From Providencia alcalifaciens (GTDB lineage: Bacteria; Pseudomonadota; Gammaproteobacteria; Enterobacterales; Enterobacteriaceae), in the NCBI RefSeq assembly GCF_915403165.1, contig NZ_OU659204.1:2480001-2544000 (forward strand): a stretch of DNA of 64,000 bases, read 5' to 3'. Made by a program: the position numbers and the translations under genes. Of the stretch, positions 6,206 through 55,907 are shown piece by piece. Numbering within the stretch: the first letter of the stretch is position 1; every line of letters starts with the position of its first letter. The notes under the pieces are model-generated. The model did not search any database. It was not told the DNA's origin and saw only the letters and a program-made list of their open reading frames with translations.

Positions 6206-6235
6206 AAGCATGTTATTAGCCCTTTTTAGCGGTGT

Positions 6236-6281
6236 GAAGTGACCCCCAGTAATTGGTTCTCCAACGATTGGGGGTCACTTC
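6236..6281. terminator. Strong hairpin between convergent Sel1 and hipA genes
   Basis: A perfect 13-bp stem (GAAGTGACCCCCA with TGGGGGTCACTTC) has a 20-nt loop and lies 30 bp after the Sel1 stop. There is no good T-run on either side, so it is a candidate bidirectional terminator or mRNA 3'-end stabiliser rather than a textbook terminator. Confidence 0.5.
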
Positions 6282-6326
6282 AGTTATGGGGCTTTGTTTA
6301 TTTTCGCCAATTACACAGACTAAACC

Positions 6327-6372
6327 GCACCTAAAAAGGTGCATAAATTGGATAGTGACCGTTTTTAGGTGC
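6327..6372. repeat. Inverted repeat GCACCTAAAAA...TTTTTAGGTGC, 3' of hipA
   Basis: An 11-bp perfect inverted repeat (6327-6337 and 6362-6372) lies just after the hipA stop codon. Its arms share GCACCTAAAA with the 13-bp inverted repeat in front of hipB (8051-8096). A third half copy, AGGTGC, follows the left arm at once (6337-6342). The repeat could be a second HipB operator, a hairpin ending hipA transcription, or a boundary mark of the module. Confidence 0.6.
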
Positions 6373-6375
6373 AAA

Positions 6376-7716: not shown

Positions 7717-8047
7717 ACTCTTCAAGTTCCTTGTCACTTAATGGACTCGCTCTTCGAGGTTGATTCATTGCTTCCAATGCGCTTACTGCATTATCTTTTT
7801 TATTCAATGCATCGGCGAGTGTGGCACCTGCACGAACAATGTCTAGATAACGCAAAATCTGACCAATGGCGATGCCCGGATCACCATTTTCAATTCGACT
7901 CACAGTATTACGGCTCAGATTTGCTCTGACGGCAACTTCCGCCTGCGTCATTCTGCGGGCAATTCGACTTTGCGCCAAGGAATTACCTAACGTAGAGAGC
8001 TGAAGTGATTGTTCTTGTGAAAGTAACGTCTGCTGTGAACGCTTCAT
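7706..8047 (-). CDS. hipB: HipB-family XRE antitoxin and autorepressor
   Basis: This cytoplasmic DNA-binding protein has one helix-turn-helix of Cro/C1 type at about residues 25-78 (RIARRMTQAEVAVRANLSRNTVSRIENGD in pieces), the fold used by HipB antitoxins to bind an operator and to hold HipA inactive. The C-terminal tail (PLSDKELEEYDF) is acidic. The frame begins at a GTG at 8068, but the ATG at 8047 is preferred: AGGTG sits 5 nt before it, and the GTG would place the operator arm inside the coding sequence. The gene overlaps hipA by 11 bp. The operator covers the promoter and the Shine-Dalgarno site, so strong autorepression is expected. Confidence 0.87.
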   Translation of the reverse strand: MKRSQQTLLSQEQSLQLSTLGNSLAQSRIARRMTQAEVAVRANLSRNTVSRIENGDPGIAIGQILRYLDIVRAGATLADALNKKDNAVSALEAMNQPRRASPLSDKELEEYDF

Positions 8048-8050
8048 AAT

Positions 8051-8096
8051 GCACCTAAAATAAGTCACAAAGTCTATAATGTTTTATTTTAGGTGC
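8051..8096 (-). promoter_or_regulatory. hipBA promoter/operator with 13-bp inverted repeat
   Basis: GCACCTAAAATAA (8051-8063) is repeated perfectly in inverted form at 8084-8096 with a 20-bp spacer. The spacer holds a TATAGA/CATTAT-type -10 sequence reading toward hipB, and the left arm contains the hipB ribosome site. Centre-to-centre distance is 33 bp, about three helical turns, which suits two antitoxin dimers. That HipB is the binder is inferred from position. Confidence 0.7.
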
Positions 8097-8185
8097 AATT
8101 GAATAAAATTCAATCTATTCGATGCTTTGGTTTTACTCAATTGTCTGTTTGAATATTTAATTGGCTACCATGATATTAATGCCCA

Positions 8186-9622
8186 CTAGGCTTTCTTCGG
8201 TGCCCGGCTCGCTTTCAAGGTGATCCGCACCAACAACCCGCCGAGATGTTCACTCTTTAGCAGCTGCAAGTCTGAGCCGTGATAACTGGCGATATCTTTT
8301 ACAAGCGCCAATCCCAGCCCTGAACCTTCCAGTCCTTTGGCATTATTCAAGCGCATGAAGGCTTTTAATGAGCGGTGAATATATTTATTTTCAATACCGG
8401 GTCCTGAGTCTTCAACTTCCACTTTAATCATGGATTTATGGCTTTCATCCTCCACAATGCGCACAGTGACAATCCCCTTCTCTGGGGTATATTTGATTGC
8501 ATTATCAATTAAGTTCGCGCACATTTCCGCCAGCAAAATAGCATCACCTTTGACCCAACAATGCTCTAGCCCCTCATAGCCTAAATCAATCTGCTTGCTC
8601 TCGGATTCTCCCAAGCGGGTAAAACAGACTTGCTGAACAATTTCGACCAGATTAACCGCACGATAGAGCCTTATCGCCTCTTTTTCGTGCTCTTTTAAAC
8701 GCGCAAGCTGCAATAAGCGGTCAGTTAATACGATGGTGTTATCCAACGTTTTATTAATCGCCTGCAAACTTTGCTGTTTTTGTTGTTCATCATCGCTATT
8801 GAGAGCCACTGAAACTTGGGTTTTTAATACGGCTAACGGGGTTTTTAATTGATGAGAAGCATCGGCACTGAAACGTTCTTGGCGTTTTAACATGCGCTTT
8901 AAACGCTCCACATAGCGGTTCAAGGCATCCACTAGAGGCGAAAGTTCAGACCATGGCAACACATTCGGTATTGGCGTGAGATCATTCGCGGCACGCCCCA
9001 ACATAAGATTGGAAAGCTTTTTCAGCGGTGTTAATAATTTACGTAGTAGCAAATACGCCAATATCAATGTCACAACCACCACAGTACCTTGGCTCATCAA
9101 CGCCGAGATAAGCAGTTGATTGGCAAAATCTTGCCGAGCATACACCGTTTCAGCGACGCGGATCTCCACCATACCTTGGATCCCACCTTCGTTAATCGGC
9201 TGGAAAAAGGTCGCCACGCGAATGGGTAGCCCCATATATTCCGCATCATAAAAGTAGACTAAGGCAGTGTAATGTTGAGAGCGCATCCAGTAAGGGGGGA
9301 TTGGCGGTAGGTCATCATAGCCAGAAATGGTTTCCCCGTGAGGGGCGATGACTTGGTAAAACAAGCGATCATTGTTGTTCAGCTCAAAGCTATCAAGAAC
9401 CACATAAGGCACATTCACGGAAAGATGTTCATCCACCACCTGCAAGCGCTCCGCCACTGTTCTCGCCGACGCCAGTAATGTCCGGTCATAGGCAAGGTTT
9501 GCGGCGTTTTTAGCACTATAATAGTGGGTATAAACGGAGAAACTTCCCAACAAAATGAGGGGGATACCGAAAAAAATCAGTAACTGATGAAAGAGAGAGC
9601 GTGGATGAGAGACTAATTTCAT
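8186..9622 (-). CDS. tctE: TctE-type sensor histidine kinase
   Basis: This inner-membrane kinase is predicted to sense extracellular tricarboxylates and phosphorylate TctD. Layout in 478 residues: membrane helix about 12-31, a periplasmic sensor region of the 2CSK_N type to about 165, second helix about 170-193, HAMP linker, a HisKA dimerisation helix with the phospho-accepting histidine in FSADASHQLKTPL near residue 255, and a HATPase domain with N box (LIDNAIKYTPEKG), G1 (EDSGPGI) and G2 (GSGLGLALV). The start overlaps the tctD stop by 4 bp, so the two are co-translated. The divergent tctCBA operon points to tricarboxylate uptake control, as in Salmonella. The ligand could be citrate or a related acid. 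Confidence 0.85.
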   Translation of the reverse strand: MKLVSHPRSLFHQLLIFFGIPLILLGSFSVYTHYYSAKNAANLAYDRTLLASARTVAERLQVVDEHLSVNVPYVVLDSFELNNNDRLFYQVIAPHGETISGYDDLPPIPPYWMRSQHYTALVYFYDAEYMGLPIRVATFFQPINEGGIQGMVEIRVAETVYARQDFANQLLISALMSQGTVVVVTLILAYLLLRKLLTPLKKLSNLMLGRAANDLTPIPNVLPWSELSPLVDALNRYVERLKRMLKRQERFSADASHQLKTPLAVLKTQVSVALNSDDEQQKQQSLQAINKTLDNTIVLTDRLLQLARLKEHEKEAIRLYRAVNLVEIVQQVCFTRLGESESKQIDLGYEGLEHCWVKGDAILLAEMCANLIDNAIKYTPEKGIVTVRIVEDESHKSMIKVEVEDSGPGIENKYIHRSLKAFMRLNNAKGLEGSGLGLALVKDIASYHGSDLQLLKSEHLGGLLVRITLKASRAPKKA

Positions 9623-10287
9623 ACACTACACTGCTCTAATCGGTATCCCAAGCCGCGTAAAGTATTGATATTGACATCTGAACCCGCGAGCTTTTTGCGA
9701 ACCCGATGCACATACAATTCAATACTTTGTAAATTGGCTTCATCCGACAGTGAGAATACCTGCTCGAATAATTGTGTTTTTGAAACAGGTCGTCCTCTAC
9801 GATGAAAAAGGGTATTCAATACCGCGTATTCTCGCGGGGTTAAGCCTAGCGGTTCCGCCTTCAATGAAAAATAACCGTCGTCATGAAAACAGAGATCACC
9901 AAAACACTGGTCACTATTCACATTCCCTTGGCTACGGCGTAATAACGCACGCACTCGGGCTTCTAGTTCCGCAATATCAAAGGGTTTAGTTAGGTAATCA
10001 TCCGCCCCTGCATTTAGCCCTTTTACGCGGTCAGCCACATCTGAATTCGCCGTTAATAACAGCACGGGCGTTTCTTGATGACGTTTGCGCATCTGGGCTA
10101 GCACATCCAAGCCACTCATGCGAGGTAATGAAACATCCAATACCACCAACGAATAATTTTCAGTTTGTAATAGCTGGTCAGCGCTATAGCCATCACCGGC
10201 AATATCAACAGCAAATCCCGATGCGGTTAAGGCTTTTTGTAACCACAATGACAACTCGTCATGATCTTCAACCAATAACATTCTCAT
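9619..10287 (-). CDS. tctD: TctD-type OmpR-family response regulator
   Basis: The N-terminal receiver has the acidic pair in LLVEDHDE, the phospho-acceptor Asp in VVLDVSLPRMSG near residue 51, the switch Thr/Ser in LLLTANSD and Lys in YLTKPF. The C-terminal winged helix (Trans_reg_C) carries TPREYAVL and ends with HRVRKKL and TLRGLGYRLE. It should activate or repress tctCBA on phosphorylation by TctE. An ATG at 10302 opens the frame, but aligning with Salmonella TctD (MRLLLAEDN) favours the ATG at 10287 (MRMLLVEDH). No strong ribosome site marks either. The intergenic region to tctC is about 370 bp and is the probable target. Confidence 0.85.
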   Translation of the reverse strand: MRMLLVEDHDELSLWLQKALTASGFAVDIAGDGYSADQLLQTENYSLVVLDVSLPRMSGLDVLAQMRKRHQETPVLLLTANSDVADRVKGLNAGADDYLTKPFDIAELEARVRALLRRSQGNVNSDQCFGDLCFHDDGYFSLKAEPLGLTPREYAVLNTLFHRRGRPVSKTQLFEQVFSLSDEANLQSIELYVHRVRKKLAGSDVNINTLRGLGYRLEQCSV

Positions 10288-10462
10288 TCGTCGCCCACTC
10301 ATTATGATTATTTATGCGTATAAGTTGGCACTCTCTCGATTGAATGAAAAGTATTAAACGTGATTTTTACCGAAGCTATCACAACAATCCTTCGTTAACC
10401 TGCTGCCACAAATAGAAATTAACATTAAATTAACAAATTTAAGAAGGGATAATATAAAACAA

Positions 10463-10478
10463 TCTGATATGTATCACA
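10463..10478. promoter_or_regulatory. Candidate CRP site between tctD and tctC
   Basis: TCTGA-N6-TCACA matches nine of the ten conserved bases of the CRP consensus TGTGA-N6-TCACA. It lies in the 374-bp divergent control region about 185 bp before tctC. Catabolite control of citrate transport would be biologically sensible. The rest of this region (10288-10661) is AT-rich, and I see no further firm signal in it. Confidence 0.45.
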
Positions 10479-10661
10479 TAAAAATAATTTTATTTGTTAA
10501 TGAAAGGTAAATGAAAGGTTCTCAATACAATGATGAATAGCGAAAAAACATTACCCACAGTTATTTATCTACAAAAACATATTCATCTACAACGGAATAT
10601 CCATAACGACATAACCAACAACAACCAAGTAACTTAATTATTGTCTAGTGAGGAATGAAGC

Positions 10662-11636
10662 ATGAAGAAGTTCACAATCAATACCTTAGCAGCAGCAATT
10701 TTTTTAGTTGGCATTAACCAAGCAATGGCGTTACCCGAAAGAACAGAATGTATTGCCCCTGCCAAACCTGGCGGTGGCTTTGATTTAACCTGTAAACTCG
10801 TTCAAGTCTCCATGCTGGAAACCAAAGAAATCGAAAAACCAATGCGTGTGACTTACATGCCCGGTGGAATTGGTGCCGTCGCCTACAATGCCATTGTGGC
10901 TCAACGCCCAGCTGAGCCGGGAACCATCGTCGCATTCTCTGGTGGCTCCTTGCTCAACCTTGCTCAAGGTAAATTCGGTCGTTACAACGAAAATGATGTT
11001 CGCTGGCTCGCGAGTGTTGGCAGCGACTATGGCATGATTGCCGTGCGTGCTGACTCCCCATATAAAACCTTAGGCGAACTGATGGATGCCTTCAAAAAAG
11101 ATCCAAACAGCATTGTCTTCGGTGCAGGTGGCTCCATCGGTAGCCAAGATTGGATGAAAACGGCGTTACTGGCCAAGGCTATCGACTTAGACCCACGCAA
11201 AATGCGCTATGTTGCTTTCGAAGGCGGCGGCGAAACACTAACAGCCCTGTTAGGTAACCACATCCAAGTGATTTCTGGCGATATCAGCGAAATGACCCCG
11301 TATATCAGTGACGGAAAAATCCGCATCCTAGCGGTGTACGCCGATAAGCGCTTACCGGACGGACTCGCTAATATCCCAACCGCTAAAGAGCAAGGCTACG
11401 ACATTGTTTGGCCTATCATTCGCGGATTCTATATGGGGCCAAAAGTTTCCGATGCCGATTACAACCAATGGGTTGAAGCCTTTCAAAAATTACAACAAAC
11501 CGATGAATTTAAAAAGCAGCGTGAATTGCGTGGCTTGTTTGAATATAACCTATCGGGTCCAGAACTAGACGCTTACGTGAAGAAAGAAGTTGAGAACTAC
11601 CGTGAGCAAGCTCGTTCCTTCGGGTTAGCGAAATAA
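10662..11636 (+). CDS. tctC: Tripartite tricarboxylate transporter periplasmic binding protein
   Basis: TctC/BUG-family proteins bind citrate or related carboxylates in the periplasm and deliver them to TctAB. The N-terminus is a Sec signal peptide (KK, hydrophobic core LAAAIFLVGIN, cleavage after QAMA), followed by the family signature PAKPGGGFDLTCKL. The two-lobed body includes GGSIGSQDW and GNHIQVISGDISEM. The 324-residue length is usual. It is the first gene of tctC-tctB-tctA, with gaps of only 10 bp between genes, and is read divergently from tctDE. GAGGAATGA before the ATG supplies the ribosome site. Binding-protein identity in this family does not fix the ligand, so citrate is an inference from operon structure. 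Confidence 0.9.
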   Translation: MKKFTINTLAAAIFLVGINQAMALPERTECIAPAKPGGGFDLTCKLVQVSMLETKEIEKPMRVTYMPGGIGAVAYNAIVAQRPAEPGTIVAFSGGSLLNLAQGKFGRYNENDVRWLASVGSDYGMIAVRADSPYKTLGELMDAFKKDPNSIVFGAGGSIGSQDWMKTALLAKAIDLDPRKMRYVAFEGGGETLTALLGNHIQVISGDISEMTPYISDGKIRILAVYADKRLPDGLANIPTAKEQGYDIVWPIIRGFYMGPKVSDADYNQWVEAFQKLQQTDEFKKQRELRGLFEYNLSGPELDAYVKKEVENYREQARSFGLAK

Positions 11637-11646
11637 CGGAGCCGCT

Positions 11647-12078
11647 ATGAGCCAACGCATATTTGCCATAGTCTGGCTAATACTGTGTGGGATCGGGCTG
11701 TATATAGGCTGGGGCATCCAAAGCGAGTTTAGCTATGAACCGCTAGGCCCCCGCCCCTTCCCGATAGCCATACTGTCATTAATGACCCTGTGTGCACTCG
11801 CACTCCTGTTGGGTCGCCAAGAAGCGGTTGAATGGCCAAAGCCCTATGTCTTGCGCCGTTTAGTCTTGTTAATCATTGCATTAGTCATTTATGCATGGGC
11901 CTTTGAGTGGTTAGGATTCCCATTAGCGACCACCTTATTAACCATCAGCGTTGCCCTGTTATTTGATGCAACCCCGATAGCCGCCCTAATTTCCGGTCCG
12001 ATTCTTGGTCTTTCGCTGTTTTACGCCTTCGACAAATTGCTCGATGTGACATTGCCAATCGGCGAACTTTTTAGCTAA
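11647..12078 (+). CDS. tctB: Tripartite tricarboxylate transporter small membrane subunit
   Basis: This 143-residue inner-membrane protein has four predicted helices (about 5-23, 37-56, 71-93 and 96-132), the size and topology of TctB. The motif EPLGPRPFPIAIL after the first helix is typical of the family, where a GP..FP segment precedes helix 2. It partners the 12-helix TctA subunit to form the sodium- or proton-coupled permease. The gene begins 10 bp after tctC with CGGAG as ribosome site and ends 10 bp before tctA, so co-transcription is certain in practice. The small subunit diverges fast, so its call rests strongly on position. Confidence 0.87.
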   Translation: MSQRIFAIVWLILCGIGLYIGWGIQSEFSYEPLGPRPFPIAILSLMTLCALALLLGRQEAVEWPKPYVLRRLVLLIIALVIYAWAFEWLGFPLATTLLTISVALLFDATPIAALISGPILGLSLFYAFDKLLDVTLPIGELFS

Positions 12079-12088
12079 GGAGAAAAGT

Positions 12089-13597
12089 ATGGAAACTTGG
12101 ATGTATTTATCTCAAGGCTTTGAGGTGGCGCTGATCCCTCAAAATATTATGATTGGGCTGATTGGTTGCTTTATCGGTACGATTGTCGGCATGTTACCGG
12201 GTCTTGGACCCATTAACGGCGTGGCTATTTTATTACCTTTAGCGTTTGCGTTAAAGCTCCCTGCTGAGTCTGCACTTATTTTACTGGCTACCGTCTATCT
12301 AGGCTGTGAGTATGGAGGGCGAATTTCTGCCATCCTATTGAACGTTCCCGGTGATGCCGCCGCAATTATGACCACGTTAGATGGTTACCCAATGGCGAAG
12401 CAAGGCAAAGGCGGCATCGCACTTTCGATTTCTGCCGTCAGTTCATTTATCGGTTCTACCATTGCAATTGTTGGGATCATTTTATTTGCACCACTACTGG
12501 CACAATGGTCGCTCGCCTTCGGGCCTGCTGAATATTTCGCATTGATGGTATTTGCTATCGCGTGTTTAGGTAGCATGATGAGCCAAAACCCCGTCAAATC
12601 GCTGCTCGCGGCATTGATTGGTTTGGCGCTAGCAACCGTCGGTGTCGATGCCAACTCTGGGGAATACCGTTTTACCTTTGACAGCGTTAACCTATCCGAT
12701 GGCGTCCAGTTTATCGTCGTAGTTATTGGTCTGTTCTCTGTGAGTGAAATATTACTCATGCTAGAAAGCACGGCGTCTGGACAAGGATTGATCCGCAAAA
12801 CAGGTCGAATGTTATTTAGCAAAAAAGAAGCTAAGGCCTGTGCTGGCCCAACATTACGATCCTCATTTATTGGCTTCTTTGTGGGGATTTTACCGGGTGC
12901 GGGGGCGACTATCGCTAGCGCCATCACCTATATGACAGAGAAAAAAATTGCAGGTGATAAAGGGACATTTGGTGAAGGGGATGTTCGCGGTGTCGCGGCA
13001 CCTGAAGCCGCCAACAACGCCTCTGCCTGTGGATCATTTATTCCGATGTTGACCCTCGGTGTTCCAGGTTCGGGCACAACGGCAGTGATGATGGGAGCGC
13101 TGACGCTGTATAACATCACCCCAGGTCCGGGGATGTTCACTGAACAACCACACATCGTTTGGGGATTAATTGCTGCGCTTCTTATTGCTAACGTCGTATT
13201 GTTAGTGATGAATATTCCGCTGATCGGTCTATTCACGCGTATGCTCACCGTACCACTGTGGTTTTTAGTCCCTGCAATTGCCTGTGTCTCTGCGGTGGGT
13301 GTTTATGCGGTACACAGCACCACTTTTGACTTGTTACTGATGATGGGGCTTGGAGTATTCGGCTATATCTTGCGGAAGATGAATTTCCCACTATCTCCGC
13401 TGATCCTTGGGTTTGTTTTAGGTGAGATGTTAGAGCAAAACCTGCGCCGCTCGTTGTCTATCAGTAATGGGGATTTCAATATTTTGTGGAGCAGTACTAT
13501 TTCTAAAAGCTTATTAATTCTGGCGGTATTGGTGCTGGTGTTACCACCGATTGTGAAGCTTATTCGCAAACGTCGTCGTCAAACCGCGCAAGCATAA
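12089..13597 (+). CDS. tctA: Tripartite tricarboxylate transporter large permease
   Basis: The 502-residue permease of the TTT family has about 12 membrane helices. Both copies of the conserved glycine-rich signature are visible: GTIVGMLPGLGPINGVAILLP near residue 31 (in parts) and GFFVGILPGAGATIASAITY near residue 257. The segment EAANNASACGSFIPMLTLGVPGSG near residue 305 (in parts) is also characteristic. The basic tail RKRRRQ is cytoplasmic. It translocates the TctC-bound carboxylate using the ion gradient. It is the last gene of the operon; AAGGAG precedes the start. Confidence 0.92.
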   Translation: METWMYLSQGFEVALIPQNIMIGLIGCFIGTIVGMLPGLGPINGVAILLPLAFALKLPAESALILLATVYLGCEYGGRISAILLNVPGDAAAIMTTLDGYPMAKQGKGGIALSISAVSSFIGSTIAIVGIILFAPLLAQWSLAFGPAEYFALMVFAIACLGSMMSQNPVKSLLAALIGLALATVGVDANSGEYRFTFDSVNLSDGVQFIVVVIGLFSVSEILLMLESTASGQGLIRKTGRMLFSKKEAKACAGPTLRSSFIGFFVGILPGAGATIASAITYMTEKKIAGDKGTFGEGDVRGVAAPEAANNASACGSFIPMLTLGVPGSGTTAVMMGALTLYNITPGPGMFTEQPHIVWGLIAALLIANVVLLVMNIPLIGLFTRMLTVPLWFLVPAIACVSAVGVYAVHSTTFDLLLMMGLGVFGYILRKMNFPLSPLILGFVLGEMLEQNLRRSLSISNGDFNILWSSTISKSLLILAVLVLVLPPIVKLIRKRRRQTAQA

Positions 13598-42985: not shown

Positions 42986-43402
42986 TTATATTTCTTTAGA
43001 AAGATAATGCCGCTGCATGCCTAATTCAGGGAAATTAGGGAGTGACATTTGTTTCACATATCCCAGTTTTTCATAAAATGGTAAAGCTTGGAAACTAAAG
43101 GTATCCACTAATGCATTGTGGCAGCCGAGTTTTTTACTCTCTTCTTCTGCAACGTGCATTAATTGGCTACCTAATCCATTCTTACGCATTGACTCATCCA
43201 CCCACAGATAATCAATACATAACCATCGACCCTTGATGGATGCGAGAAGCCCTCCCTTCATGACCCCATTTTCATCTTTGCTATACACACCAAGTTGTCC
43301 GAAATAGCTATTTTGTAAAAAAGATCGATTATAGCTTCTTAACCCAGTAAATAACGCCTCTTTATCTTCAGGGGTAATCTCATGTGTAACTGTAATTTTC
43401 AT
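42986..43402 (-). CDS. GNAT-family N-acetyltransferase
   Basis: The 138-residue protein has the GNAT pattern: a basic N-terminal strand-helix, [21 protein letters not shown] as the central strands, [19 protein letters not shown] as the acetyl-CoA pyrophosphate loop (R-x-x-G-x-G) near residue 75, and [20 protein letters not shown] as motif B. The [11 protein letters not shown] segment resembles small-molecule acetyltransferases of the YpeA/YhbS type, but the acceptor is unknown. Convergent with the lipoprotein gene. Confidence 0.85.
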
Positions 43403-44896: not shown

Positions 44897-45637
44897 TCAG
44901 GGAAGAATAGCAAATGAGCGAACAGGAAACCCACTCGCATTATTAGGTTTAGCCACGATATTAAAAATCACGGCACCACGAGTCGGTAATTGATCCAAAT
45001 TCGCCATCAATTCTATTTGGTAAGTGTCTTGTGCTAATACGTAATACTCCCCTAATAGCGCATTATTTTGGCGAAAATCTTTCGCTGCATCAGTATCGAA
45101 CGTTTCATGCCCAATGGCTTTAATGCCACGCTCTTCAAATAAAAATTTGAGCGCATCCATACCCCATCCCGGAATTTGGTTATTACCTTCAGCGTCTTTA
45201 TTATCCATGGCTTCCTGAGAAGGCCAACGCTTATGCCAATCTGTGCGTAGCGCCACAAAACTATCCGGCTCTATTCGCCCATGCTCACGCTCAAAAGCTA
45301 AAACATCGTCACGAGAAAAAGCAAAATTAGGGTCTTGTTTCACTCGCTCAGATTGGTCGATAACAATCAGCGGTAAGACTAACTCTTGCAGTTCCAATTC
45401 ATGCAAAAAGCGTTTTCCTTCAACAAAATGGCAAGGAGCGTCAATATGCGTACCGTATTGCCCAGAAAAGGTAAATTGCTGAGCAAAAAAGCCGTCAGAG
45501 TAGCCAAATAATGTTTTAAATTCTGCAGAGTCAAACATAAAGAAATGAGGAGAGTCTTTATCAAAGCTGTGCGTTAAATCTACCCATTTTTTGGATTTTA
45601 ATACCTTTAGTGCATTTAAAACCTCGTTAGCCATCAT
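44897..45637 (-). CDS. Cyclase-family (KynB-like) metal-dependent hydrolase
   Basis: The 246-residue protein belongs to the PF04199 cyclase fold, shown by the metal-binding motif GQYGTHIDAPCHFVEGKRF (H-x-G-T-H-x-D-x-P-x-H type) near residue 60 and by GHETFDTDAAKDF near residue 170. Known members are arylformamidase and isatin or mandelamide hydrolases. The sequence lacks features that would fix one of these. It lies 155 bp downstream of the MetQ-like gene on the same strand and may share its transcript, so it could act on the compound that transporter brings in. Confidence 0.8.
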   Translation of the reverse strand: MMANEVLNALKVLKSKKWVDLTHSFDKDSPHFFMFDSAEFKTLFGYSDGFFAQQFTFSGQYGTHIDAPCHFVEGKRFLHELELQELVLPLIVIDQSERVKQDPNFAFSRDDVLAFEREHGRIEPDSFVALRTDWHKRWPSQEAMDNKDAEGNNQIPGWGMDALKFLFEERGIKAIGHETFDTDAAKDFRQNNALLGEYYVLAQDTYQIELMANLDQLPTRGAVIFNIVAKPNNASGFPVRSFAILP

Positions 45638-45750
45638 TTTTCCCTATCTGGTTTTGGTCTTTATCAAGACAGTTTTATTTTGCTGTTTTTATTTGTTCTG
45701 AATAGGTAATAACCAACTCTGTAGCGTTTGTCTATCTTTCTAAGCAACCT

Positions 45751-45779
45751 GTTGCCAATTCTTTCACCGAGTTGGCAAC
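45751..45779 (-). terminator. Hairpin between the MetQ-like and cyclase genes
   Basis: GTTGCCAA/TTGGCAAC is a perfect 8-bp stem with a 13-nt loop, 13 bp after the MetQ stop. Without a T-run it is likely a partial terminator or stability element. Confidence 0.4.
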
Positions 45780-45792
45780 GAGAATTCGAATA

Positions 45793-46635
45793 TTATTTAG
45801 AATAATTTGCCCACGCAGCTGGTTCAATAAAACCATCATAAAGGCGCTGAGAGCGAATATAATCAGCATACTCTTTTGATTCAAAAGCCTCTTTTAAATC
45901 TTTAGCCCATTGGGTATCGAGATCTTTTTGTAGAACAGAAACCACAACACGATGCTCAAGTGGTGAATCCTCAACAACTAAACCATCGGCAATACGCTGC
46001 CCTGCACTCGCCACATAGTTACCATTCACCACCACAAAATCCACATCATCCAATAGACGTAAACCTTGCGCAGCATCTGTTTCACGGATATCGAGTTTAT
46101 ATTTTGCCGGTTCAATGTCATTTACGCTAAAACTGAGCGTACTGACATTCGGCTTGATTTTAATCCAACCCAGTTGCTCTAAAATTCGAGCACCACGTTC
46201 CGCATTTATAGGGTCATTTGACAACGCCACAATCATGCCATCTTGTACATCATCCAGCGTTTTGTGTTTATTAGAACGTAAACTCTGCGGTGCGCTTGGC
46301 GAATCTGCTAATGCGACCATATTAATGTTATTTTTTTGGTTATACGCTTCCATATAAGCGCGACTTTGGTTTACTGATGCGTCAATTGCCCCTTCTTCAA
46401 ATGCAGGGTTAATTTGCCTATTCTGTGAAAACTGACGTAACGTCACTTGGTAACCTTTTTTCTCTAAAATAGGCACAATACCTTTATCGGCCTGGTCAAT
46501 ATAATTCCCGACACCGAAGCCAATCGTAATTTGCTTTTTATCTGAGCTGTCTTTTTCTTTATTATCACCACATCCTGCCAATACAATGATTGCGGTTGCC
46601 ACTAAAGATAGATTTATTATTTTTTGTTTGAACAT
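45793..46635 (-). CDS. MetQ/NlpA-family lipoprotein substrate-binding protein
   Basis: The 280-residue binding protein has a lipoprotein signal ending LAGCGDN (Cys near residue 22). Asn/Asp-rich residues after the Cys keep it near the inner membrane. The NlpA domain includes GVGNYIDQADKGIVPILEKKGY, FEEGAIDASVNQSRAYMEAYN and NDPINAERGARILEQLGWI (in parts), which is the MetQ fold. It is divergent from the CMD/FMO/MetNI genes and should feed that transporter. MetQ homologues bind D/L-methionine, but many paralogues bind other compounds. The oxidative enzymes next to it and the lack of a clear MetJ box argue against a plain methionine importer. Confidence 0.88.
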   Translation of the reverse strand: MFKQKIINLSLVATAIIVLAGCGDNKEKDSSDKKQITIGFGVGNYIDQADKGIVPILEKKGYQVTLRQFSQNRQINPAFEEGAIDASVNQSRAYMEAYNQKNNINMVALADSPSAPQSLRSNKHKTLDDVQDGMIVALSNDPINAERGARILEQLGWIKIKPNVSTLSFSVNDIEPAKYKLDIRETDAAQGLRLLDDVDFVVVNGNYVASAGQRIADGLVVEDSPLEHRVVVSVLQKDLDTQWAKDLKEAFESKEYADYIRSQRLYDGFIEPAAWANYSK

Positions 46636-46737
46636 TTGATATTCCCTATGGTGATTACTTTTTAATTACTTTCAGTTTTTAATATTGTCAATTGACCGGA
46701 GTATAAACAGGATTTATTTAACGTCTTAGATCCGTTC

Positions 46738-46796
46738 GTTATAACTTAAATAAAAATGAATATAAAAATAAGACAAACCAAAATGGTTATAACCAT
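46738..46796. promoter_or_regulatory. Two GTTATAAC palindromes in the MetQ/CMD divergent promoter
   Basis: GTTATAAC occurs at 46738-46745 and, within the 14-bp perfect palindrome ATGGTTATAACCAT, at 46783-46796. The copies are 48 bp apart in a 241-bp divergent region. This fits operators for one regulator of both transcripts, but no regulator gene is adjacent. Confidence 0.5.
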
Positions 46797-46876
46797 ATAA
46801 CAAAATGGTAGTTCGAATAATGATGTGATTGATATGTAATGAAGGAGATAAAAAATTTAAATAAAGTGAGTTATTT

Positions 46877-48010
46877 ATGACAGTAAAATTTGATTTAATT
46901 AACACGATTCTTCACCTGACACCAGACTCGGAATTAGCAAAAAAACGCGCAGAAAGACCCGTTGCAACAGAAAATACTCAAGCCGCTTTTGAGACTATTT
47001 TTTCTGTGCCATCTCAAGTATTGCCTCTAAATGTAAAATATTATTTTGCGCTTTCCGTGGCAAAAATTACTGGTTCAATGTTACTCGCACAATATTATGC
47101 TGAATTATTATCATCACAATCCATCGTCGAAATAACACCTGACATTACGCTTGCTGAAAAATATTTGCGGATATTAACCAGCAATCCAAATCAAGCGGAT
47201 TACGCTTTAACGCAACAATTTATCCAGCAAGGATGGTCTGAGTCCGATATTATTTTATTGGCTCAGTTAATTACCTTTGTGACTTATCAATCTCGCTTAG
47301 TCTCTGGCTTGGAATTATTAATTGGACAAAATCCGATTTCAGATAATAAATCAAACCAATATTTTCCAATTACCGCAGGAAATTGGCGTCACGCAACGAC
47401 AACACATTTAGGACAACCATCACCAACCGCCTTTACACAACAGCAATTAGGTTGGGAATCTTGGTTATCTGCGCGAGATGTAAATTCGTTAAGTGATGAT
47501 GAAACTCAAACTCTGAAAAAGCATGGACAATTGAGTTCTGAGTATTTCCTTTTGTTAGCTCATCAAAGTGAAGTTTTAGCACTACGTACACAGATAGACC
47601 GCGGTATTTTTTATACCTCAGGTGGGCTACCTCGTTGGGAAAGAGAGTTTGCTGCCGCTGCGGTCAGTAAAGTGAATGGCTGCATTTATTGCGCCTCAGT
47701 TCATGCACGCAAAGCTAGCCAGTATGCAAAAGAACATTTCGGTGATGTCGAGAAACTGTTAGCGACTCCCGCAGGAAATGTGCTTGCTGAAGGCTATGAG
47801 CCGAGGCTTTTAGCTGCCGTATCTCTTGTTGCTTCGCTCTCCGCTACGCCTATTCAAGCCTCCGTTGAGCAAATCGATCAACTGCGTTCATTAGGGGTTA
47901 CGGAGCTAGAGTTACTCGATTTAATTCAATCCAGTGCTTTTTTCTCATGGGCTAATCGCTTGATGCTGACATTGGGAGAACCGTTTGAACTCCCTGAACA
48001 TAAGGAGTAA
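46877..48010 (+). CDS. Two-domain CMD/AhpD-like peroxidase-related protein
   Basis: The 377-residue protein consists of two related all-helical halves. The C-terminal half (about 180-370) has the AhpD redox motif in KVNGCIYCASVHARKASQ (C-x-x-C...H near residues 275-283), preceded by PRWEREFAAAAVS. The N-terminal half (about 20-150) has the same helical plan (PLNVKYYFALSVAKITGSMLLAQYY) but no CxxC. I recall the halves as separate proteins (Avi_7170- and Avi_7169-type CMD families) near monooxygenase/ABC loci in other bacteria; here they appear fused. It probably handles a peroxide or acts as reductant for the adjacent flavoenzyme. It heads a four-gene operon. Confidence 0.75.
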   Translation: MTVKFDLINTILHLTPDSELAKKRAERPVATENTQAAFETIFSVPSQVLPLNVKYYFALSVAKITGSMLLAQYYAELLSSQSIVEITPDITLAEKYLRILTSNPNQADYALTQQFIQQGWSESDIILLAQLITFVTYQSRLVSGLELLIGQNPISDNKSNQYFPITAGNWRHATTTHLGQPSPTAFTQQQLGWESWLSARDVNSLSDDETQTLKKHGQLSSEYFLLLAHQSEVLALRTQIDRGIFYTSGGLPRWEREFAAAAVSKVNGCIYCASVHARKASQYAKEHFGDVEKLLATPAGNVLAEGYEPRLLAAVSLVASLSATPIQASVEQIDQLRSLGVTELELLDLIQSSAFFSWANRLMLTLGEPFELPEHKE

Positions 48011-48014
48011 TACC

Positions 48015-49475
48015 ATGGATAAGGTCATTGGATTAGCCGCTCTCGAGGCGCAAATAAATCAGGATCTGCAGTACCTTAATTTGCCGATTGGCTCATGGTC
48101 TCTGTCAGATGAAGATCTTGATAAGCAAAAGATTAATGTCGCCATTATTGGTGCGGGCATGTCGGGAATTACTGCATCCTTTGCCCTAAAATTACGAGGC
48201 GTTAACGCCATCGTTTTTGACCAAGCACCTTCCGGCAAAGAAGGCCCTTGGCAAACACCAGCCTTGATGGAAACCTTGCGGTCACCTAAACAGGTTGTTG
48301 GCCCTGCTCTCGCCTCCCCCTCTTTAACATTCCAAGCATGGTTTAAAGCTCAATTTGGTGATGATGCGTGGGAAAATCTCGATAAAATTCCACGCTTACA
48401 ATGGGGGGAGTACCTACAATGGTTTAAAACCATGACGGCCCCCACGCTGCTGAATCAGCATCAATTAGTCGATGTTAAATTAATCCCTCAAGGTCGTGAG
48501 TTAACGTTTGAGACTCCCAATGGGCAGGTCTCTTTTGTCGCTCAGCATGTTGTGATTGCAACCGGCATGGAATCATTTAGCGAGCCTAATATCCCAGAAT
48601 TTATGGATAAAATTCCAACCCAATACTGGGAGCATTCATATGCGGGTAGCAACTATGAGCGATTTAACGGACTCGATATTGGTGTTGTGGGCTACAGTGC
48701 AGGTGCGATGGACAGTTCAGCCACTGCATTAGAACATGGTGCTAAGTCTGTTGAGTTATTGATCCGAGCAAAAGAGATGCCTCGAGTAAACCGAGGAAAA
48801 GTTGCTGGAAGTGCCGGTTTTACCAATGCCTATGGGTATTTTACCGATGCACAAAAATGGCATTATGCCGACTATGTTTTGAAAGCGAAAACCCCTGCCC
48901 CTCATGGCAGTACACTGCGTGTTTCTCACCATACTCATGCTTATTTTAACTTCAATACGCAAGTCAATGATGTCACCGTCAAAGAAGATAAATTGCAAGT
49001 TTCTACCACCCAAGGGGATTTCTCTTTTGATTACCTCATTTTAGCGACAGGCTATCGACTGAATTGGCAGAAACATAGCGCATTTCATCGCTTGGCACCG
49101 TTTATTAAAACGTGGAGAGATGTTTATACCCCCCCTAAAGGTGAAGAAAATGATGAACTTGCCACGCATCCCTATCTTGGTAAACACTTTGAATTACAAG
49201 CAAAAGCAGGTTATGAGTTTCCGTTTATTGATCACTTTTATTGCTTCAATTTAAGTGCCTCTCTCAGTATGGGGCCCGTAATTGGTCTGATCCCAGGCAC
49301 TAATACTGGGGCTGAGCGCTTAGCGGATCATATTGCCGCTAAATTGTATCTGGCCCATCGGCAGCAGCACCTTGAGTTGGTTAAAACCAGTACAGAGAAT
49401 GAATTATTAGGTGATGAATGGCAACCTGCCTTGCCCCCCGCTCAGCGCGTACAACTGATTGAAAATGTGGAGTAA
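48015..49475 (+). CDS. FMO-like flavin-dependent monooxygenase
   Basis: The 486-residue protein has an FAD Rossmann motif NVAIIGAGMSGITASFALKL near residue 24 and a second dinucleotide (NADPH) motif DIGVVGYSAGAMDSSATALEHG near residue 220. The region between carries IPTQYWEHSYAGSNYERF, comparable to the FMO fingerprint with its conserved His-Ser. FDYLILATGYRLNW near residue 340 is the typical ATGY element. ATG 48015 has AAGGAG at 7 nt and follows the CMD gene by 4 bp. Substrate unknown; such enzymes oxygenate N or S atoms or perform Baeyer-Villiger reactions. Coupling with a MetQ-type importer suggests a sulfur- or nitrogen-containing compound. Confidence 0.82.
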   Translation: MDKVIGLAALEAQINQDLQYLNLPIGSWSLSDEDLDKQKINVAIIGAGMSGITASFALKLRGVNAIVFDQAPSGKEGPWQTPALMETLRSPKQVVGPALASPSLTFQAWFKAQFGDDAWENLDKIPRLQWGEYLQWFKTMTAPTLLNQHQLVDVKLIPQGRELTFETPNGQVSFVAQHVVIATGMESFSEPNIPEFMDKIPTQYWEHSYAGSNYERFNGLDIGVVGYSAGAMDSSATALEHGAKSVELLIRAKEMPRVNRGKVAGSAGFTNAYGYFTDAQKWHYADYVLKAKTPAPHGSTLRVSHHTHAYFNFNTQVNDVTVKEDKLQVSTTQGDFSFDYLILATGYRLNWQKHSAFHRLAPFIKTWRDVYTPPKGEENDELATHPYLGKHFELQAKAGYEFPFIDHFYCFNLSASLSMGPVIGLIPGTNTGAERLADHIAAKLYLAHRQQHLELVKTSTENELLGDEWQPALPPAQRVQLIENVE

Positions 49476-49478
49476 AGG

Positions 49479-50492
49479 ATGATTGAATTTAACAATGTCC
49501 AAAAGATCTATGAAAAAAATGGGCAGTCCTTAGTCGCTCTACAAGATATTAATTTGCATATCAATAAAGGTGATATTTTTGGTTTTATTGGTTATAGCGG
49601 TGCAGGTAAAAGCTCCCTCATCCGCTTAGTTAATCAATTAGAAAAGCCAACCAGTGGCTCCATCAAGGTCAATCAGCACAATTTGGCGGAGCATACCCCA
49701 TCACAAATACGGGCACATAAAAAAAGCATCGGAATGATTTTCCAGCATTTCAATTTGTTGGAAACGAAGACCGTCGAACAGAATGTTTCTATGCCTCTGG
49801 TTTTACTCGGCATTGATAAGCATGAAATTGCCCGTCGCGTAGATAACATTCTCGAATACGTTGAACTGAGTGATAAAAAACACCAATACCCTAACCAGCT
49901 TTCTGGTGGGCAAAAACAGCGAGTTGGAATAGCCAGAGCGTTAATTAATAACCCACAAATCTTGCTGTGTGATGAAGCAACCTCTGCATTGGATCCTCAA
50001 ACTACCGCCTCTATTTTGGCATTACTGCAAAAGATCAATCGGGAACAGAGAATTACCATTTTATTGGTCACACATGAAATGGAGGTCATTGAGCAGATTT
50101 GTCATCGTGTCGCAGTCATGGAATCCGGTCGCATTGTTGAAGAAGGCACAGTGCTTGATATTTTTGCCAATCCTCAACATTCAACCACGCAAAAATTTGT
50201 GGGTACTGTGCTCAATGAAAAAATTCCTGACCGTGTACTTCATCAGCTTGAACATCAAGAGGATGTCTATCGATTAGAGTTTTTAGGCAAATCGGCACAA
50301 GAGCCCGTGGTGAATGAGCTTATCATCAAGAATATTATTAAAATCAATATCCTGTTTGCCAACATGAAAGAGATCAATGGCGTCGTTTTGGGCAGTATGT
50401 TTGTTCAAATGTTAGGAGATAAGCAACATATTGATGAAGCCATAACCTATTTACGCCATCGTGGCGTTGCAGTGAATAAGGGAACAGTATGA
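49479..50492 (+). CDS. MetN-type ABC transporter ATP-binding protein
   Basis: The 337-residue ATPase has Walker A GYSGAGKSSLIR near residue 39, Q-loop IGMIFQHFNLLETKTV, signature LSGGQKQRVGIARAL near residue 140, Walker B ILLCDEATSALDP and the switch His in LLVTHEME. The C-terminal ~90 residues form the NIL regulatory domain of MetN proteins, which senses the substrate in E. coli. The start is 3 bp after the FMO gene and the stop overlaps metI by 4 bp. It powers the importer with the downstream permease and the MetQ-like lipoprotein. This seems to be a paralogue rather than the housekeeping methionine transporter. Confidence 0.9.
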   Translation: MIEFNNVQKIYEKNGQSLVALQDINLHINKGDIFGFIGYSGAGKSSLIRLVNQLEKPTSGSIKVNQHNLAEHTPSQIRAHKKSIGMIFQHFNLLETKTVEQNVSMPLVLLGIDKHEIARRVDNILEYVELSDKKHQYPNQLSGGQKQRVGIARALINNPQILLCDEATSALDPQTTASILALLQKINREQRITILLVTHEMEVIEQICHRVAVMESGRIVEEGTVLDIFANPQHSTTQKFVGTVLNEKIPDRVLHQLEHQEDVYRLEFLGKSAQEPVVNELIIKNIIKINILFANMKEINGVVLGSMFVQMLGDKQHIDEAITYLRHRGVAVNKGTV

Positions 50493-51157
50493 GTGAGTTT
50501 TTTGAAACAGCACTGACAAGTAAACAATTTTTATTGGCCATGTCAGAAACATTCACTATGGTGAGTATTGCGCTTGTCCTAGGCTCGCTATTTGGGATCT
50601 TATTGGGAATTTTATTAGTCATTACTCGCCCAGAAGGGATTTGGGAAAATAAACGCATTTATCGCGTGATTAACCCTATTATTAATATATTCCGTTCATT
50701 ACCTTTTATTATTTTATTAGTGGCTATAATCCCACTAACGCGCTTTGTAGTGGGCACATCTATTGGTACCACCGCGGCAATTGTGCCATTAGTCATTTAT
50801 ATTGCGCCTTATACGGCAAGATTGGTCGAAAATTCATTGCTCAGTGTCCATTCAGGAATTATTGAAGCCGCCGATGCAATGGGGGCGACCAACTGGCAAA
50901 TTGTTTGGCACTTTATTTTACCGGAAGCGAAGTCGTCATTAATTTTAAGCTTAACGGCTGCCAGTATAACGCTAGTTGGAGCAACAGCGATGGCTGGTGC
51001 AGTTGGCGGCGGAGGTGTTGGTGACCTTGCGTTAAATTACGGCTATCAACGCTTTGATAATGTTGCTATGGCAATTACGGTTGTGACCTTGGTGATTATA
51101 GTGCAAGGAATACAGTTTATTGGTGACACTTTGGCAAGAAAGGCGCGCTTTCACTAG
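50489..51157 (+). CDS. MetI-type ABC transporter permease
   Basis: The 222-residue inner-membrane permease has five or six helices and the EAA coupling loop IIEAADAMGATNWQIVWHFILPEA near residue 130 (in parts). It also has the family segments PFIILLVAIIPLTRFVVGTSIG and GAVGGGGVGDLALNYGYQRF. It overlaps metN by ATGA and ends the operon. It forms the homodimeric channel with two MetN-type ATPases; the MetQ-like lipoprotein is encoded divergently. Confidence 0.92.
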   Translation: MSEFFETALTSKQFLLAMSETFTMVSIALVLGSLFGILLGILLVITRPEGIWENKRIYRVINPIINIFRSLPFIILLVAIIPLTRFVVGTSIGTTAAIVPLVIYIAPYTARLVENSLLSVHSGIIEAADAMGATNWQIVWHFILPEAKSSLILSLTAASITLVGATAMAGAVGGGGVGDLALNYGYQRFDNVAMAITVVTLVIIVQGIQFIGDTLARKARFH

Positions 51158-51164
51158 TTAATAT

Positions 51165-51193
51165 AAAGTCGATGAAATATCTTCATCGACTTT
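51165..51193 (+). terminator. Terminator of the CMD-FMO-MetNI operon
   Basis: A perfect 12-bp stem AAAGTCGATGAA / TTCATCGACTTT with a 5-nt loop lies 7 bp after the metI stop and is followed by TATTGATTTC. The remaining 330 bp before the antiporter gene are AT-rich with no other clear signal. Confidence 0.8.
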
Positions 51194-53796: not shown

Positions 53797-55164
53797 TCTC
53801 GCTTCAATCTATATTAATTGAATAAAAATTAGCAGATATTTTCTGCCATTTTCATTGTTATTTTATATGTACTGTATAGTTCATTGATAAAAACATGGTG
53901 ATACATCCAACATCACTAAGAGAATGATATACTAGCCTTCTAATTAGTTTCAACTAGTCCAAAAATGACATTGCAACTATGTAACAAAATATTTTTCTCT
54001 ATACAAATAAGACGAGTTAGTGAATTGATCTTTATTTATCAATCACTTACGTAAATTAATAGCCAGTGAATATCACCTAGTAAACTCAGATGAAAGAGCA
54101 TATCACAAGATAATTCACTAAAAACCAATTACTTTCCCGTCAATAAATCCAAAAATAAAGGAAATAAACAGAATAATTTAACACTGTAACAAAGTTAATC
54201 GTTTCACGATAACATTGGTAGTTTTTTGAGTCAAAAACCATACTAAGTGAGCATTTTCTGTAAAAGAAAGTAAAAAATATATGTTTTACATATATAACTA
54301 TTTCGCAACACAAAACATCAATAACTTACATTTTCGAACCGCATGCTACAAATTAATTAAACACTATATTTTTAAAGTAACCTAGTGAATTTAATGCACC
54401 TACATATTCAACATAACAAAACATTAACGTTAAGGAAGTCGAACATTCACTTTACTTGATGAATATCACAAAAATATGAACATTACTGATTATCGATAAT
54501 CTTATTTTAATATTACAAATACATAAGCACTCGGAAATTATTGAATTTTAAGATTATCAAAACGCGAATAACTAGAATTATTCACCAATATACTACTTTG
54601 CAGATGTTCTTTTGTTGTAATATCAATGAAAGCTTTGTTTGTTATTTCTTTAACACCACCTAAGAATATTCTTAATAATTTATTTAATCCAAACCAACAT
54701 AAAGCTGTTCATATGGTATGACATAATTTAATTCCTACCATAGTTTTTAATAAAAATTCACTTTAGATAAAACTATAAATGCATTAATCCATTAGCATCA
54801 CCATTTAAGTGATTTCACCTACAGCATTGACATGCTTTATTTTTATTAACTAGATTTTGATTTAAAAAAAACTGAAGACCACGCAATACAAGGAAAAACC
54901 TCGTTGTCGTTTCATTTGATATATTAATTCATTAAAAATTCAAAAGTTTATATTAGTAATATAATGGTCAACATAGCGAAATATTAATTCTTAATGGGAA
55001 TAATATTTTATGGGTAACATGAATATTTAAGCAAAATAAACGAAGAATGCCAGTAAGAGGGGATAGTGAGATTTTATTGGATACAGTTCTGTACAAATTA
55101 ATTAAAATCAGTAATTTACGTTTTAAATTAAGAGTTTGAGATGTGTTTTTTGATAAGAATGAAG
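53797..55164. other. 1.37-kb AT-rich gene-poor region
   Basis: No frame with a ribosome site, RNA gene or known repeat was seen. The DNA is markedly richer in A and T than its neighbours, with many runs. It lies between an MrpJ-like gene and a tRNA array, a common site of gene gain and loss. Decayed foreign DNA or an H-NS-bound control region are both possible. Confidence 0.45.
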
Positions 55165-55240
55165 TGGTGGGCGATAGCGGGCTCGAACCACTGACCCCCT
55201 CCTTGTAAGGGAGGTGCTCTACCAACTGAGCTAATCGCCC
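55165..55240 (-). tRNA. tRNA-Val (anticodon TAC), copy 4 from the promoter side
   Basis: GGGCGAT acceptor arm, anticodon loop CTTACAA and encoded CCA are all present. It is identical to the other three Val copies over the mature tRNA. It lies beyond the broken tRNA-Lys and shares flanking bases (AATGAAG...ACTTCAT) with the copy at 55622, a sign of segmental duplication. Confidence 0.97.
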
Positions 55241-55261
55241 ACTTCATGACACTACTTTAGA

Positions 55262-55325
55262 TTGTGGGTCGTGCAGGATTTCTCGGCCTTTGGCCTCACC
55301 CTACGGGTCGAACCTGCAACCATCT
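55262..55325 (-). pseudogene. Broken tRNA-Lys: 3' half split by a 27-bp insertion
   Basis: Read on the minus strand, the T-arm and acceptor 3' strand of tRNA-Lys are present (GCAGGTTCGA ... AATCCTGCACGACCCA). The T-loop is interrupted by 27 bp (about 55281-55307) containing GGCCAAAGGCC. CCA is changed to CAA, and the D-arm, anticodon arm and 5' acceptor strand are missing. It cannot make a tRNA. Confidence 0.8.
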
Positions 55326-55384
55326 TGTTAGTCGCTAATGTTCACACCGAATAACCCAAACATCTTTCAAGTTACAGATTTTAA

Positions 55385-55460
55385 TGGTGGGTCGTGCAGG
55401 ATTCGAACCTGCGACCAATTGATTAAAAGTCAACTGCTCTACCAACTGAGCTAACGACCC
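55385..55460 (-). tRNA. tRNA-Lys (anticodon TTT)
   Basis: GGGTCGT acceptor stem, anticodon loop CTTTTAA, T-arm GCAGG-TTCGAAT-CCTGC and encoded CCA are intact. The mature sequence is identical to the copy at 55505. It is the fifth gene of the array. Confidence 0.97.
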
Positions 55461-55504
55461 ATATTCAAGTATCTGTACTGCTTGAATGATTTACTTCATT
55501 TAGA

Positions 55505-55580
55505 TGGTGGGTCGTGCAGGATTCGAACCTGCGACCAATTGATTAAAAGTCAACTGCTCTACCAACTGAGCTAACGACCC
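55505..55580 (-). tRNA. tRNA-Lys (anticodon TTT)
   Basis: Same mature sequence as the copy at 55385. It occupies the place of E. coli lysV after the three Val genes. Confidence 0.97.
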
Positions 55581-55621
55581 ATCTGTATTTCTGAATTGTT
55601 TTAATGCGAGAAGAAATGAAG

Positions 55622-55697
55622 TGGTGGGCGATAGCGGGCTCGAACCACTGACCCCCTCCTTGTAAGGGAGGTGCTCTACCAACTGAGCTAATCGCCC
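55622..55697 (-). tRNA. tRNA-Val (anticodon TAC)
   Basis: Third gene from the promoter, with full cloverleaf and encoded CCA; corresponds by position to E. coli valY. Confidence 0.97.
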
Positions 55698-55728
55698 ACT
55701 TCATAATAATCACATTGTCATAAATAAT

Positions 55729-55804
55729 TGGTGGGCGATAGCGGGCTCGAACCACTGACCCCCTCCTTGTAAGGGAGGTGCTCTACCAACTGAGCTAATC
55801 GCCC
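55729..55804 (-). tRNA. tRNA-Val (anticodon TAC)
   Basis: Second gene from the promoter, with full cloverleaf and encoded CCA; corresponds by position to E. coli valX. Confidence 0.97.
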
Positions 55805-55831
55805 AATCATTTATGTTTTCATCGTCAACGG

Positions 55832-55907
55832 TGGTGGGCGATAGCGGGCTCGAACCACTGACCCCCTCCTTGTAAGGGAGGTGCTCTACCAACTGAGCTA
55901 ATCGCCC
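55832..55907 (-). tRNA. tRNA-Val (anticodon TAC)
   Basis: First gene of the array. The 3' CCA is encoded; the 5' end begins 18 bp after the promoter -10 box. It corresponds by position to E. coli valU. Confidence 0.97.

Follow-up and report, generated by a model that had tools for sequence, protein, structure and literature searches.

The 64,000-nucleotide stretch of Providencia alcalifaciens DNA analysed here (assembly GCF_915403165.1, contig NZ_OU659204.1, positions 2,480,001 to 2,544,000; hereafter the window) contains a six-gene cluster combining a MetNIQ-type importer with redox enzymes. The first-pass annotation, made from the sequence alone, had described a cyclase and a MetQ-like gene diverging from a compact CMD-AhpD/flavin monooxygenase/MetN/MetI operon. 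This layout was confirmed: all six open reading frames (ORFs) were recovered at their coordinates, and Pfam profiles confirmed their families. On the minus strand lie a cyclase-family (PF04199) hydrolase (44897..45637; Pfam Cyclase, 136.3 bits; motif GTHIDAPCH) and a MetQ/NlpA-type binding lipoprotein (45793..46635; Pfam Lipoprotein_9), whose residues map to a non-methionine pocket signature. A divergent promoter region of 241 bp (46636..46876), with blocks conserved across 12 Providencia loci, leads to the plus-strand genes. These encode a CMD-AhpD fusion (46877..48010; Pfam CMD; TIGR04029, TIGR04030 and TIGR01926), an NAD(P)H/FAD class B monooxygenase with a predicted fold like that of N-hydroxylating monooxygenases (48015..49475; Pfam PF13434 above cut-off), a MetN-like ATP-binding cassette (ABC) ATPase with a NIL domain (49479..50492; Pfam ABC_tran and NIL), and a MetI-like permease (50489..51157; Pfam BPD_transp_1). 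The ORF program starts the flavin gene at a TTG (47985), but the ATG at 48015, which leaves a 4-bp gap after the CMD-AhpD stop codon, is most likely its start. A 3-bp gap then precedes MetN, and MetN and MetI overlap by 4 bp; judged by gene spacing alone, the four genes would be co-expressed. The operon was further said to end in a strong terminator. Indeed, a 12-pair, terminator-like hairpin follows MetI (51165..51193, plus strand), and the 48-nt stretch that holds it folds at -17.4 kcal/mol (z -6.9), with none of 200 shuffles equally stable. The word "terminator" is less secure than the hairpin, as its 3' side is U-poor and the region holds nine terminator-like sites, against 8.3 expected from shuffles.

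The cluster is a trait of the genus Providencia. The flavin gene was found in all 24 Providencia genomes searched (this one included), and in each of them the MetQ-like gene lies on the same contig, at most 2.9 kb away from start to start, demonstrating that the arrangement is not due to chance. MetN reached the chosen cut-off in 23 of the 24 genomes and the cyclase was detected in 22, always on the contig of the flavin gene (23/23 within 1.5 kb and 22/22 within 4.8 kb, start to start). With these families and this conserved linkage, the proposal that links a complete importer to a monooxygenase and a peroxidase-like protein holds. Genomes G651 (locus L014) and G652 have the flavin, MetQ-like and MetN genes and no match to the cyclase gene, which is therefore not essential to the system. 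In genome G648, the cyclase match begins only at residue 28 and MetN falls below cut-off, possibly reflecting decay or an assembly error. At E <= 1e-60, the flavin gene was present in three of 295 genomes sampled from the order (this one included) and in 23 of 398 genomes of the phylum, the same three among them; a class-wide search with the CMD protein gave 2 of 369 genomes (again including this one), a number too small to be of use. Relatives of the flavin enzyme (66%) and of the MetQ-like protein (69%) occur in a Neisseriaceae genome bin; the longest contigs listed for the two agree in length, which is indirect evidence that the genes are linked there.

In Neisseria meningitidis MetQ, R156, N213 and N238 are reported to surround the amino and carboxyl groups of the ligand and Y81, F98, H100 and Y103 its thioether, and the N238A substitution to weaken L-methionine binding by over 10^5 (PMC6739813); for Escherichia coli MetQ, N229A is reported to cost over five orders of magnitude in affinity (PMC12357092). 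The seven contact columns, in E. coli numbering Y69, F86, H88, Y91, R144, N202 and N229, read Y, F, H, Y, R, N, N in both reference proteins. The canonical MetQ of the same genome, encoded with its own metNIQ set elsewhere (L002), reads F, F, H, Y, R, N, N, differing at one of the seven (Y to F). By contrast, the aligned residues of the window's protein and of 11 other Providencia MetQ-like proteins are N, N, S, Y, R, N and V (one has I at the last position). Four of the seven reported methionine contacts are replaced in 12 of 12 proteins, the decisive Asn among them, while two residues of the amino/carboxyl site (the Arg and the first Asn) and one Tyr are kept. In every one of the nearest homologues listed (120 of 223), S or T stands in place of the His and V or I in place of the last Asn, and the Arg and the first Asn are retained. 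The Paenibacillus-type reading, N-F-S-Y-R-N-I, accounts for 65 of the 124 rows checked. This rebuilt class does not include seven further NlpA-type proteins, from plasmid loci that were opened, in which the His is kept in all seven and the last Asn in six, indicating that the pocket change is particular to this clade. The MetQ/NlpA group of Paenibacillus and other Bacillota (P0292-P0360) is about 53-58% identical to the window's protein and mostly reads N-F-S-Y-R-N-I; on these residues, its annotation as methionine-binding is probably wrong.

The cluster shares all three protein families with the MetNIQ systems of E. coli and N. meningitidis, having a Lipoprotein_9/NlpA lipoprotein, a MetN with NIL domain and a MetI; it departs from them in the four replaced contacts, and also because its importer shares an operon with two redox genes and its divergent region has no MetJ-box match. 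Scored as matches out of 16 to the MetJ-box consensus, the best site in that region reached 7, at the low end of 1000 shuffles of the same region, against 15 upstream of the genome's canonical metN. Three sequence alignments agree on the Asn-to-Val column, but a shift of two residues would place a conserved His at the position of the lost Asn. One observation weighs on the other side: the aligned MetN keeps the equivalent of E. coli N295, a residue reported to serve methionine inhibition (PMC12357092). The NCBIfam cut-offs were missed by MetN (365.5 versus 499.7), by MetQ (107.3 versus 228.85) and, narrowly, by MetI (PRK10782, 210.6 bits versus 212), all scored with no control from the canonical set. 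Because pocket residues are lost, no MetJ-box match is found and a canonical metNIQ exists elsewhere, plain methionine uptake is very unlikely as the role of this importer, and we rejected it, in agreement with the first-pass annotation.

The flavin enzyme had been called FMO-like (flavin-containing monooxygenase, FMO). It is a flavin monooxygenase, with Pfam matches to several flavin/NAD(P) folds including Lys_Orn_oxgnase, but is better named an N-hydroxylating-monooxygenase-like class B flavoprotein, given PF13434, its predicted fold and its signature. In its structural model (predicted local distance difference test score, pLDDT, 88.8), the top fold matches are the N-hydroxylating monooxygenases PvdA and KtzI, by a modest margin. 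The FMO/Baeyer-Villiger signature, FxGxxxHxxx(F/Y/W), is unmatched: P201 and Q203 occupy the F and G positions relative to H207. Among the 120 flavin homologues listed, seven have the motif anywhere in their sequence. Membership of the classical FMO/Baeyer-Villiger group was rejected on this signature, the fold ranking leaning the same way. PvdA, SidA, KtzI and putrescine N-hydroxylase thus share a predicted fold and the PF13434 match with the window's enzyme, but are only 10-15% identical to it, and its activity is predicted and its context looks catabolic.

The CMD-AhpD fusion scores above the cut-off of TIGR04029 (107.9 versus 100.75) and narrowly under that of TIGR04030 (226 versus 233.15); when TIGR04029 is run on the translated genome, the match breaks into three pieces, each below cut-off. 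Its only two cysteines form a single CxxCxxxH, the redox motif of AhpD, in the C-terminal domain, and one copy of this motif is found in 120 of the 122 CMD proteins checked. E. coli YciW is a relative at 21% identity and of similar length; YciW and similar proteins are described as two AhpD-like domains in one chain (PMC11429811). Unlike the fusion, YciW has no CxxC and lies between rnb and fabI with no importer alongside. It is reported to carry a CysB motif, and its loss to raise cysteine sensitivity (PMC10821248), a relationship that provides the sole, thin link of the redox half to sulfur. In a midpoint-rooted tree of 30 CMD-AhpD proteins (neighbours unread for 14 of the 30 rows), the window's fusion groups with those from loci of the LLM type, and a 100/99 branch parts it from 13 others that adjoin flavin genes. 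A single change suffices to explain the FMO and LLM partner labels; by this tree, the oxygenase partner of this CMD-AhpD line has changed at least once, and one reading is that the Providencia cluster may have arisen as a hybrid between distinct lines.

Is this partnership found outside Providencia? We compared 19 flavin-gene loci with 19 other stretches of the same genomes; genes in these fetched loci were called by a codon-position method, which over-extends some of them (L045, L047), and the neighbours scanned were chosen by hand, so that the reading was not exhaustive. A peroxidase-related relative lies near the flavin gene in 11 of 19 loci versus 0 of 19 controls, the other eight being without a CMD/peroxidase partner. 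ABC ATPases are not clearly above controls (11/19 versus 7/19), and no cyclase relative was found within 10 kb of the flavin gene in the 19 loci. Six plasmid loci were read as well: five have the partner, and L059 (Pandoraea), whose gene table is incomplete, lists neither partner nor importer. Importer genes adjoin 15 of the 16 modules with both flavin gene and CMD/peroxidase partner, namely polar-amino-acid ABC importers (L049, L050, L060 and L063), PotA-type importers (L051, L061, L062 and L064, one gene away in L051 and L064), a peptide-type (L043) and a branched-chain-type importer (L041), and TctC receptors (L044 to L048); L042 has only a divergent OpuAC-type gene, beyond a LysR gene. Counting the NlpA type of Providencia, six kinds of importer can be assigned to the flavin module from these gene calls. 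Importers without a CMD/peroxidase match are found at L052 (peptide-type) and L053 (PotA-type). Hydrolases also recur beside the module, of the M24 family at L052, the M19 family at L053 and the BAAT type at L043. A tree of 40 flavin enzymes has three groups of matching importer type, namely the PotA-type loci L051, L061, L062 and L064, the polar-amino-acid loci and the TctC loci L044-L047, whereas L048, L053, L043 and L052 stand apart from loci of like importer type, suggesting that importer type largely follows flavin-enzyme subclade. The enzymes of Providencia, Acinetobacter and Neisseriaceae share a single long-branched clade (100/100), with Brenneria next to it.

These loci, from Pantoea, Thioclava, Agrobacterium pAt, Aminobacter and Nitratireductor among others, share the monooxygenase family with Providencia (about 40-46%), but have other importers, often encode CMD and peroxidase as separate genes, and often have an adjacent LysR gene, which is absent at the Providencia cluster. 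At L061 (Agrobacterium pAtC58, 2357-12141), L062, L064 and L051, the neighbours of the module are a PotA-type importer and a gene of the octopine/nopaline dehydrogenase family, a hint that its substrates at these loci may be N-substituted, opine-like amino acids. A further relative is the TIGR04028 locus of Pantoea and Chimaeribacter plasmids, which encodes a binding protein, two permeases, an ATPase, a putative luciferase-like monooxygenase and then a CMD-AhpD fusion. It resembles the Providencia cluster in joining an importer, a flavin monooxygenase and a CMD-AhpD fusion (46% identity, same side of the 100/99 branch). However, its monooxygenase belongs to the putative FMN-dependent luciferase-like superfamily, its importer is of the peptide type, and an M20 peptidase-family amidohydrolase is added in Pantoea; neither a luciferase-like monooxygenase nor SBP_bac_5 was found by Pfam among the proteins of the Providencia cluster. 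The earlier statement that no described pathway has this gene set stands in so far as none was found in the open-access literature, searched by titles and abstract openings, but the set itself has precedent in the recurrent FMO, CMD, peroxidase and importer units and in the TIGR04028 locus. The combination of importer, flavin oxygenase and CMD-AhpD is thus a kind already named in annotation pipelines, of which the Providencia cluster is a new form.

The pairing of NlpA-type importers with oxidoreductases is likewise a common general idea. Such importers lie beside an LLM monooxygenase and SsuD in Cytobacillus, beside an LLM in Paenisporosarcina, near an acyl-CoA dehydrogenase in Caballeronia, and beside a molybdopterin oxidoreductase and an oxygenase in Pantoea; in Klebsiella, aminotransferases are found instead. 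The binding proteins of these loci are of the His-keeping pocket class. The Pantoea vagans C9-1 plasmid pPag3 (L076, 7977-16220) carries two consecutive MetQ-ATPase-permease sets, adjoining a molybdopterin-dependent oxidoreductase and an oxygenase of the isopenicillin-N-synthase family. The methionine-type His and last Asn are retained in both binding proteins, one of which carries Met and Gln at two further contact positions.

We favour the view, with a probability of about 0.53, that the substrate of the cluster is one small, amino-acid-like carboxylate other than methionine, which is imported and oxidised. From residues and families, the MetQ-like lipoprotein would capture the ligand through the kept Arg and Asn, which hold the amino and carboxyl groups in MetQ, and MetN and MetI would carry it in. 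As its predicted fold suggests, the PvdA-like flavin enzyme would then consume NAD(P)H and O2 in oxygenating a heteroatom or an adjacent carbon, an amine nitrogen being a more likely target than sulfur, which is possible. By analogy, CMD-AhpD, via its CxxC, may reduce or rearrange the oxygenated product, or remove peroxide leaked by the flavin enzyme, and the probable role of the cyclase-family hydrolase is to open an amide, lactam or lactone at an earlier or later step. The gene order, its conservation, the pocket change, the predicted fold and the recurrent partnership are results of this analysis, whereas the substrate class, the type of reaction, the order of steps and co-expression are inferred. 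For the hydrolase, the nearest solved structure is isatin hydrolase A (E 2e-31), with which it shares the Pfam Cyclase domain, the motif and overall length; the two are nonetheless distant, and no isatin-pathway gene was recognised among the genes scanned at the window. It also scores far below the cut-off of kynurenine formamidase TIGR03035 (24.9 versus 223.05 bits), so that membership in an isatin or kynurenine pathway is unsupported.

Among the other explanations, sulfur scavenging deserves the most attention, although we consider it unlikely: the importer would take a non-methionine organosulfur compound, which the flavin enzyme would S-oxygenate, releasing sulfite or thiol for cysteine synthesis. 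The SsuD, LLM and acyl-CoA dehydrogenase neighbours of NlpA-type importers in Cytobacillus, Paenisporosarcina and Caballeronia point this way, as does the distant relationship to YciW with its reported effect on cysteine tolerance, but those binding proteins belong to the other pocket class (His kept, last Asn in all but one), YciW is remote and without CxxC, no MetJ-box match was found, and the flavin enzyme is nearest in predicted fold to amine N-hydroxylases. This fold could instead speak for biosynthesis, an N-hydroxylase-like enzyme turning an imported precursor into an N-hydroxy amino acid or related metabolite, since the nearest folds are siderophore-pathway enzymes and a GNAT-family acetyltransferase lies at 42986-43402, past a CitMHS gene; this is improbable, with no assembly-line gene among the neighbours scanned and with hydrolases and importers recurring beside the module at other loci.

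Detoxification or redox defence, in which the flavin enzyme and the AhpD-like protein would act against a toxic amine, thiol or peroxide, the importer being incidental or retrieving it, would fit the widespread CxxCxxxH. Actively importing a toxin would be odd, however, and importers adjoin nearly all modules, their type largely tracking flavin-enzyme subclade, making this account a poor candidate too. Least probable of all is a second importer for methionine (or D-methionine or methionine sulfoxide) with accidental oxidoreductase neighbours: family membership and the retained MetN Asn are outweighed in our view by the replaced contacts, which include the Asn whose change to Ala is reported to weaken binding by more than 10^5, by a linkage conserved throughout Providencia, and by the MetJ-box difference from canonical metN.

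Extending the favoured reading of import and oxidation, we tentatively propose that the flavin enzyme and CMD-AhpD form a portable oxygenation module docked to at least six unrelated kinds of importer. In Providencia, it would have joined an importer derived from MetNIQ, with the pocket rebuilt to accept some new amino-acid-like ligand (N-substituted or opine-like, perhaps), in an undescribed oxidative uptake pathway. If so, the rebuilt pocket class, which extends to Paenibacillus relatives at about 54% identity, would give the MetQ family a second, unrecognised substrate specificity. Methionine binding is the routine annotation of MetQ/NlpA proteins, and many homologue matches are so named; for a clade without the decisive Asn and with most of the thioether pocket lost, this label is probably wrong in many genomes. 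The association of an N-hydroxylase-like enzyme, CMD-AhpD and changing importers would then mark a family of uptake-and-oxidation pathways, with no substrate described for it in the literature searched, and Providencia would be a tractable place for finding its first substrate.

The cluster is flanked by a CitMHS-family transporter on one side and a potassium/proton antiporter on the other; no regulator was recognised among the genes scanned between them. Further along the window, three small minus-strand ORFs (54968-55892) share the initial translation MVEHLPYKEGVSGSSPLSPTT, which probably reflects an array of tRNA genes that precedes the glutamyl-tRNA-synthetase-like gene at 56264.

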